A stretch of 64,000 bases of DNA from Rhodospirillaceae bacterium (lineage in GTDB: Bacteria > Pseudomonadota > Alphaproteobacteria > Rhodospirillales > Casp-alpha2), in the NCBI GenBank assembly GCA_018665815.1, contig JABJBP010000021.1, positions 62,001 to 126,000 on the forward strand, in the 5' to 3' direction. A program made the position numbers and the translations under genes. The notes beneath the pieces were generated by a model. It searched no databases. It was not told where the DNA came from and was given only the letters and a program-made list of their open reading frames with translations. This document shows, piece by piece, positions 60,388-63,035 of this stretch (the first letter of the stretch is position 1; each line of letters opens with the position of its first letter).

Positions 60388-61170
60388 TTAGCTGGGCGGT
60401 GGCGGCAGCGCGCGTCCAGGAACTCGCGGTAGCGGCGGAATTTTCGGAAAGTCAGGAACCGCGCCAACGGGCGTATATTTGGGCCGCGGCGCTTCAAATA
60501 GTTGCTGTATTCCATCGGCGGCCGCAGCGGTCACAACGTCGGCGACTCGCCCCCAATTACGATTGAGACTCCCTGCAGCAATGACATTCTCCTGCACGGC
60601 TTTGCCAACTTCCTCGCCGCCAATTGTTTTTACCGCCCAAGCGATTCGCGCGCGTTGTCGACCATTGACAGGCGGCCCCACGTCAACCACGCCAACAACC
60701 TCATAGCCCGCCTGTCGGGGATCATCTGTGACCGTCAGGTCCTTGCTCCGCAAAGCTTGGCGAAGCGCAGTAATCAACGCGCTGTTGCCATCACCCGGCG
60801 CGCCGCGTACGGGGCGAATCAGAAAACTAGGACGCCCCCAAACGACCGGCGTATCGCTGGGCGATGCCGCAACACCAGCGGCGGAATTTGGCGTCGCCGG
60901 ACGCGTTTCCGGCGGCGGCGCTTCGGTCGCACGTTTCCCCATGGACTCGAGTTTTTGCAGCTGATCCGTACTCGGCGTTAAATTATCGGGCGTAGGCTCC
61001 GCGGATATTTCTTCGGCGGTCAGCCCTCCAATTTCGGGAGGCGTTGTTTCGCTTGCCGTCTGTGGCCTTGGCGCCAAGATCATCGGCGGTCGCGAAGCAG
61101 CAACCGGCAAGCTCGGCTCGCTCACGGTTTCCGACATCGGCGTAACTGTGCCGGTCTTCTTGACCAACAC
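60388..61170 (-). CDS. Second half of a TAG-interrupted two-domain lipoprotein (protein Y), unknown
   Basis: Up to 260 residues if started at GTG 61170, or 249 from ATG 61137; neither has a convincing ribosome site. No signal peptide. A Pro/Ser/Thr-rich first 115 residues is followed by a domain FLIRPVRGAPGDGNSALITA...YEVVGVVDVG...ARIAWAVKTIGGEEVG...WGRVADVVTAAAADGI and a Pro-rich tail ending PGRALPPPPS. The domain closely matches the second domain of the adjacent lipoprotein (62001-63035). It is in the same frame as the preceding ORF with only TAG at 61183-61185 between, so it is probably the C-terminal half of one gene. I do not recognise the domain. Confidence 0.6.
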   Translation of the reverse strand: MLVKKTGTVTPMSETVSEPSLPVAASRPPMILAPRPQTASETTPPEIGGLTAEEISAEPTPDNLTPSTDQLQKLESMGKRATEAPPPETRPATPNSAAGVAASPSDTPVVWGRPSFLIRPVRGAPGDGNSALITALRQALRSKDLTVTDDPRQAGYEVVGVVDVGPPVNGRQRARIAWAVKTIGGEEVGKAVQENVIAAGSLNRNWGRVADVVTAAAADGIQQLFEAPRPKYTPVGAVPDFPKIPPLPRVPGRALPPPPS

Positions 61171-61182
61171 CTCAGTGGCAGA

Positions 61183-61935
61183 CTATTCGCTTGCCTTAAC
61201 CATTTCCGGCGCCAACTCGCTCTTTGGCTCTGCTGTGTCTGCCGATGCTGTTGGTAGAGGCTCTAGTTCCAGTACGCCCGACAATTCCCCGACGCTTTCA
61301 GGCGCGGCAGCGCTTTGCGGCGGCGGCTCCACAACAACTTGCTGTGCCACGTGCAAGGGCCCGACATGATCGTGCACCATCGCCACAACCGCCGGCATGG
61401 CGTCCCCGACGATAAGATTGACGACCTCAACGGAATTTCTATCCCACAGAACCTTATCAATCACGATTTCCCGGCTCCAGTCGGCAACAATTGTGCCATA
61501 TGGCGCACGCAATTCCCATTTCGTCGTAATCCAAACCACCGAACCTCGATTCCGCACTTTGGAAACTTTGCCGATCACGGATGGTCCCCGATTGTTAGCC
61601 TCTCCGGATAGGACGGCGGGTCTTTCCGAATCACGGAGAGATGCCGCCACGGCATCTGCCAGCACCAACGGCAGTGGGCCGCCAACCCCAGTTATGGGAA
61701 GCACGTGAATGACATTGGTGGATTGCACCAGCGGCGGCGCTGGGGCAGGCATCATTTTCTGCTCCGTCACGGTCGCTGACTCGAGTGATGTGCAAGCCGC
61801 CATGGTGAACGGGCCAAAAACCGAAATCACCAAAGCCAAGGTAACGGAACGAGCACGCGTGCGACAAACTTGTCGCCGATCGATTCGCGGAACCGTCAAC
61901 GTGGCTGTCACTTCGCTACACCCCACCTGCGACAT
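61183..61935 (-). CDS. First half of the TAG-interrupted lipoprotein (protein Y), unknown
   Basis: About 250 residues. A hydrophobic segment ending in a lipobox (LALVISVFGPFTMAAC-T) marks an exported lipoprotein, although the N-region before it is unusually long and the start (ATG 61935, or 61986, or a GTG/TTG nearer the segment) is unclear. The domain IHVLPITGVGGPLPLVLADA...SVVWITTKWELRAPYGTIVADWS resembles the first domain of the paralogue at 62001-63035. A Pro/Glu/Ser-rich linker leads to the stop TAG at 61183. The frame stays open beyond it into the next ORF. Function unknown. Confidence 0.65.
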   Translation of the reverse strand: MSQVGCSEVTATLTVPRIDRRQVCRTRARSVTLALVISVFGPFTMAACTSLESATVTEQKMMPAPAPPLVQSTNVIHVLPITGVGGPLPLVLADAVAASLRDSERPAVLSGEANNRGPSVIGKVSKVRNRGSVVWITTKWELRAPYGTIVADWSREIVIDKVLWDRNSVEVVNLIVGDAMPAVVAMVHDHVGPLHVAQQVVVEPPPQSAAAPESVGELSGVLELEPLPTASADTAEPKSELAPEMVKASE

Positions 61936-62000: not shown

Positions 62001-63035
62001 TCAAGATTTCGGCGCCCATTTCGGAAGAGCCGGTTGCGCTGGAAGCTTCGGTTCGGGCGACAATTCGGGCGGCGGCAGGACCGGGCGTATGCCGTTCTTA
62101 ACGACATCCGTTTTTAATCGGCGATCCGCGGCGAGCCTAAATCGCACCGTCTCTTCAGCTCTGGTCAAAACATCCTTAACGCCCCCGACGGCCGCAGCAG
62201 CAATCACCGCCGCGGTTTCCCCCCAACGTCCGTCAAAGGTCCCGGCCGGCACTTCGTTTCGCTGCACCGCATGGCCGACAATGCCGCCATCGGGATATGT
62301 GACCCTCCAACGAATTTCAACTTTCTGACGTCCATTCGACGGCGGCGTAACTCGAATATGACCGTCAAGAATATGCCGCGCCGCCATTTTTTCCGACGTC
62401 ACTGCGACTTTTGCCCTCATTAGCGCGAAACGCATCGCGCGGGTGAGCGATTTGTCACCATCCCCCGGCGAATCGCGAATAGGCTTCACCCACACACCGG
62501 CAGACACCGGAATAACTGCTTTCAGCGTTTCATCTTCGGGCTCCACCGCTTCCGCCACCAGCCGGCCCGCATCAGCGCCAACTTTAGCAATAATTTGTGG
62601 TGAGCCCCACCGCCAGTCAAATCCACTGCCTTCTACATCCTGGCTGAAGGTGAAGAACGGCTCGCTCTCACCAAGAAGGAGACTCCAATGTATTCGCGCG
62701 ACCTTGCCAGCGGCGGTTGGCGACTCCAGTGCGTCCACCCGCCCTTTGAGCGTATATTTCAACGAATTGGCTTCGTCCGCTGTCGCCGGTATTCCACGGC
62801 GCACCAGATCTTCCGCGACTGATTTGGCTAATAATTTTGCCATCGGCGCCGGCGGCCCATCAAGCATCTGGACCCGTACGCCACCACCGTTATCGCGCGC
62901 AATTAACTCCGCCGCCCCGGAGCCAGGCAACGACTGAAATGGTTTGGGTAGCTGGCCGCAAGCGGCCACCATTAATTCAATGGATACGATCATGCCTACA
63001 AACGAACTACGCGATACGGGCACTGCGCTGGGCAT
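62001..63035 (-). CDS. Two-domain lipoprotein (protein X), unknown family
   Basis: 344 residues. Lipoprotein signal with lipobox (SFVGMIVSIELMVAAC-GQLP). Two related domains: A, about 45-165 (VRVQMLDGPPAPMAKLLAKS...LKYTLKGRVDALES...VARIHWSLLLGE) and B, about 175-300 (VWVKPIRDSPGDGDKSLTRA...ILDGHIRVTPPSNGRQKVEI...WRVTYPDGGIVGHAVQRN). A Pro-rich tail follows (LPPPELSPEPKLPAQPALP). Domain B matches the domain in the ORF at 60388-61170. The overall plan recalls envelope activator lipoproteins (LpoB/CsgG-like folds), but this is not shown. ATG 63035 has GTGAAGG directly before it; the start is tentative. Confidence 0.7.
   Translation of the reverse strand: MPSAVPVSRSSFVGMIVSIELMVAACGQLPKPFQSLPGSGAAELIARDNGGGVRVQMLDGPPAPMAKLLAKSVAEDLVRRGIPATADEANSLKYTLKGRVDALESPTAAGKVARIHWSLLLGESEPFFTFSQDVEGSGFDWRWGSPQIIAKVGADAGRLVAEAVEPEDETLKAVIPVSAGVWVKPIRDSPGDGDKSLTRAMRFALMRAKVAVTSEKMAARHILDGHIRVTPPSNGRQKVEIRWRVTYPDGGIVGHAVQRNEVPAGTFDGRWGETAAVIAAAAVGGVKDVLTRAEETVRFRLAADRRLKTDVVKNGIRPVLPPPELSPEPKLPAQPALPKWAPKS

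Follow-up and report, generated by a model that had tools for sequence, protein, structure and literature searches.

Does the minus-strand reading frame at 60388-61935, which a single in-frame TAG cuts into two long pieces, represent two genes or one, and if one, what does the stop signify? The frame lies in a 64,000-nucleotide window (the whole stretch of DNA analysed) from an uncultured alphaproteobacterium, whose genome, G000, is a draft of 157 contigs, 98% complete. Translation from 61935 to 60388 gave 250 amino acids, the TAG (61185..61183), 264 amino acids and a TAA, confirming the original prediction that the ORFs 61183-61935 and 60388-61170 lie in one frame with the TAG alone between them. 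The upstream piece (61186-61935, 250 codons from ATG 61935) contains a signal peptide, a lipobox with its cysteine codon at 61792-61794, a domain designated A (61351-61719, profile match 162 bits) and the start of a disordered linker (60841-61350) in which the TAG is located. The downstream piece (60388-61182) consists of the rest of the linker, domain B (60436-60840, profile match 205 bits) and the terminal TAA, and has no signal peptide. An intact two-domain lipoprotein paralogue, also on the minus strand, is found at 62001-63035, and the other neighbours at the locus are an M24 peptidase gene and prs.

The chance probability of a 264-codon open run after the stop is approximately 7e-5 at this GC content. 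As domain B also shares 81-83% identity with its counterpart in the related genomes G022 and G004, the downstream piece is real coding sequence. In the window there are five same-frame pairs of ORFs whose members each span at least 240 codons. Only 60388-61935 is a split gene, and the other four read on inspection as adjacent genes or non-coding frames.

The intact form of the gene was sought by a search of the host's own bacterial family (48 genomes) and by six-frame profile scans of fetched loci. Domain A, the disordered linker and domain B were contained in one uninterrupted ORF of approximately 450-600 amino acids, at the same place, in at least 16 of these (G005, G006, G008, G010, G012, G018, G019, G021, G024, G027, G028, G061, G062, G063, G065 and G069). 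The frame was open up to the contig limits in G004, G016, G022, G064 and G071, and G013 carries a shorter form of the gene. Where gene order was tested in relatives, it was peptidase, paralogue, two-domain gene, prs. These orthologues bear out the proposal that 60388-61935 is one gene, and since relatives have a single ORF, an origin from two separate ancestral genes was rejected. Neither relatives encoding two separate proteins nor a start and export signal belonging to B were found.

In G004, which belongs to the same genus as the window, the gene is divided between two contigs. Their ends have in common a 69-base stretch that differs at one base; on each contig the frame runs uninterrupted through the position of the window's stop, which is accordingly derived rather than ancestral. 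The TAG at 61183-61185 was not found in any relative with sequence covering the site, including the pair G022 and G028; the linker itself aligns poorly among relatives. A different arrangement was seen in genus g6 (L139, L140 and L142), where domain B follows the two-domain paralogue as a fusion within one ORF of approximately 500-610 amino acids and A has been lost.

The upstream piece was predicted to carry a lipobox and one domain, and we found the lipobox FTMAAC, with Met at position -3 where Leu, Val or Ile is usual, ahead of domain A. The calculated duplex energy with the anti-Shine-Dalgarno sequence is -7.7 kcal/mol at GTG 61911, and judged by this ribosome site GTG 61911 is the likelier start, rather than ATG 61935. 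By contrast, the 264-codon downstream piece lacks a signal peptide, its first start, GTG 61170, has no ribosome site (+0.1 kcal/mol), and its domain B is homologous to A, all in agreement with what had been proposed for it. An independent start for B was rejected, as none was supported at the head of the piece and TTG 61110 forms only a weak duplex (-4.7 kcal/mol) with no signal peptide.

Homology links domains A and B with one another and with both halves of the paralogue, which thus has both domains on one chain, as originally described. Neither piece of the interrupted gene matched Pfam or NCBIfam, the paralogue had no match above the curated cut-offs, and a profile search gave no significant sequence match in the PDB; naming the protein by sequence family was rejected on these grounds. 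An AlphaFold2 model of the intact G028 orthologue consists of two compact alpha/beta domains and, between them, a disordered linker (residues ~185-351); in 10-residue blocks, pLDDT is 82-96 across the body of each domain. Foldseek matched this model to PelC (5t11), PqiC (8q2c), GNA1162 (4hrv), LptE and the TolB N-domain, with a best E of 8e-5 and TM-scores by target of approximately 0.5, and the model of the paralogue shows a like fold. As modelled, A and B adopt the PelC/PqiC/LptE/TolB-N fold. This fold is what they have in common with those proteins, and a lipobox is present here; unlike them, the product of this gene bears the domain twice in a single chain, with a long disordered linker, and the Foldseek matches at E <= 0.001 are 8-19% identical in sequence. 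The immediate neighbours (M24 peptidase, paralogue and prs) include no Pel, Pqi, Lpt or Tol partner. For a protein of this predicted architecture, a role as a two-domain envelope lipoprotein can reasonably be inferred.

It remains to account for the stop. The best explanation, which we consider likely, is that a recent nonsense mutation created the TAG in the linker of one ancestral two-domain lipoprotein gene, so that 60388-61935 is probably an ordinary, recent nonsense pseudogene. Translation would begin at about GTG 61911, proceed through the signal peptide and domain A, and end at 61183. Domain B would not be made, or only in traces which, having no signal peptide, could not reach the envelope. 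The loss may be tolerated through redundancy with the intact adjacent paralogue, which has the same two domains.

Selection on the two sides of the stop was compared using G004. The dN/dS ratio was 0.035 for domain B, 0.11 for domain A and 0.62 for the linker after the stop, although these ratios are rough because synonymous sites are near saturation. With G028 as outgroup, unique amino-acid changes on the G000 and intact G004 branches numbered 5 and 8 respectively in domain B, and 7 and 10 in domain A. Thus there is no excess of change on the G000 branch, and the relaxed constraint expected only of an old pseudogene is absent in B. This means that the stop is very young compared with the divergence of the two species, is polymorphic and not fixed, or is an assembly or base-call artefact. 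The pseudogene reading requires the first of these; the constraint would look no different if translation continued past the stop or if the assembly were wrong.

Other members of the family carry lesions of several kinds in the same gene. There is one TAG inside domain A in each of G035 and G036, one TAG and one TAA in the G032 gene, and a frameshift plus several stops in both G025 and G030. G017 has a large deletion that leaves only about the last 50 codons, and in G001, G002 and G003, which belong to the window's genus, only a relic of approximately 500 bp is left between the paralogue and prs. In G033 two contigs (L043 and L042) end in the linker with a common 9-bp sequence, GTGCCAAAT, and inverted ends CACTAGTGTCCGGCAATT and AATTGCCGGACAGCAGTG; the probable lesion is insertion of an IS element with a 9-bp duplication, the element itself being unassembled. 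Contig ends within the gene looked frequent among relatives, and the probable IS accounts for one case. In G036 (C63:1-396, L144), the end of a B domain runs in frame into what appears by eye to be the C-terminal part of a sugar kinase, a junction that looks like a rearrangement or a chimeric assembly.

When open and broken states were placed on a tree of the paralogue, at least seven changes were needed, four of them forced by the well-supported branches alone; these counts are approximate, as the tree was made by a quick method. This bacterial family can do without the gene, which has been lost repeatedly and independently. Given several independent breakages and deletions among relatives, the window's stop is probably a matter of ordinary gene decay and not of a new reading of the code.

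We also asked how TAG is used in this genome and whether other genes are split. The 39 tRNA matches in G000 included no anticodon CUA, UUA or UCA, and TAG terminates 105 of 406 long coding frames in a sample of the genome. Reassignment of TAG to a sense codon was rejected on this stop usage and tRNA content. In 636 kb of G000 stretches, five other genes were found in which one Pfam domain spans a single in-frame stop: a DUF1194 gene outside the window (TAG, C109:10522-10524, L086), a PrpF gene (TAA, C105:2771, L163), a HAD hydrolase gene (TAG, C105:32531, L164), a DAO oxidoreductase gene (TAA, C128:3302, L158) and an MBOAT gene (TGA, C128:29494, L159). The list was chosen by eye from a coding-score ranking, with Pfam confirmation for these five, and is a lower bound rather than a rate. 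These further cases indicate that single-stop genes form a background in this assembly, be their origin biological or in the assembly itself.

Nonsense mutation, readthrough and base-call error had all been offered for this locus. Of these, nonsense mutation is the best supported and readthrough found no positive evidence, while some probability stays with an error in the sequence. According to that reading the TAG is absent from the cell's fixed genome, and a base-call error or a consensus of mixed strains conceals an intact gene. We regard this as rather unlikely, but several observations point towards it: G000 is a draft metagenome assembly in 157 contigs, single TAG, TAA or TGA codons interrupt other genes in it too, domain B is fully constrained, and the one-base difference between the G004 contig ends makes strain variation at the locus plausible in such assemblies. 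On the other side, the deletion relics, the duplication-flanked insertion and the frameshift with stops are clearly biological, making real loss credible here too, and prs and the M24 peptidase gene have no excess of G000-specific changes, a comparison that has little power for one gene.

Belinky et al. (2021, PMC7918605) describe genes with in-frame stops as widespread in bacteria and the stops as short-lived, but contend that many of these genes should not be counted as pseudogenes; we therefore retained readthrough as a rival. The TAG would be read at a useful rate by near-cognate decoding, giving a lipoprotein with A only and some full-length protein. Purifying selection on B does persist beyond the stop, and many bacterial genes with in-frame stops have dN/dS below 1 (PMC7918605), but a recent stop accounts for the constraint equally well. 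A stop position conserved among relatives, as readthrough would lead one to expect, was not seen, since no relative with sequence covering the site has this stop; in addition, the tRNA matches include no suppressor, TAG commonly serves as a normal terminator in G000, and relatives decay at the same gene. Readthrough thus appears very improbable. The locus resembles the young pseudogenes of that study (PMC7918605) in having one stop, intact relatives and low dN/dS on both sides; it differs in that the stop is known from one genome only, and in that insertion, frameshift and deletion have also struck this gene elsewhere in the host's family.

There is equally little to be said for fission of the gene, in which A and B would now be two functional proteins, with B translated from an internal codon. 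A stop in the linker does leave both domains whole, but B lacks a signal peptide, and its first start has no ribosome site; it is on an exported chain in every intact relative (including the g6 fusion behind the paralogue), and fission cannot explain the stops inside domain A in G035 and G036. We give still less credence to the idea that the linker stop is a low-expression switch, yielding mostly A-only protein with few full-length molecules by readthrough, and that the frequent stops of the family are selected and not neutral decay; if it were true, these stops would reflect selection to reduce or split the gene product.

With recent nonsense mutation as the preferred explanation, the stop alone matters little, and annotation should give 60388-61935 as one disrupted gene and not as two proteins. 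The locus does bring to light an unnamed family of two-domain envelope lipoproteins adjoining prs in the host's bacterial family. No stop was found inside the matches to the paralogue in any family genome surveyed. With one copy kept intact and the other lost repeatedly in a variety of ways, these genomes make a natural set with which to probe the role of the second copy. In G071 (L135, 706-1091) the paralogue seems to be divided over two frames, perhaps by a frameshift, and no other disruption of it was seen in the family.
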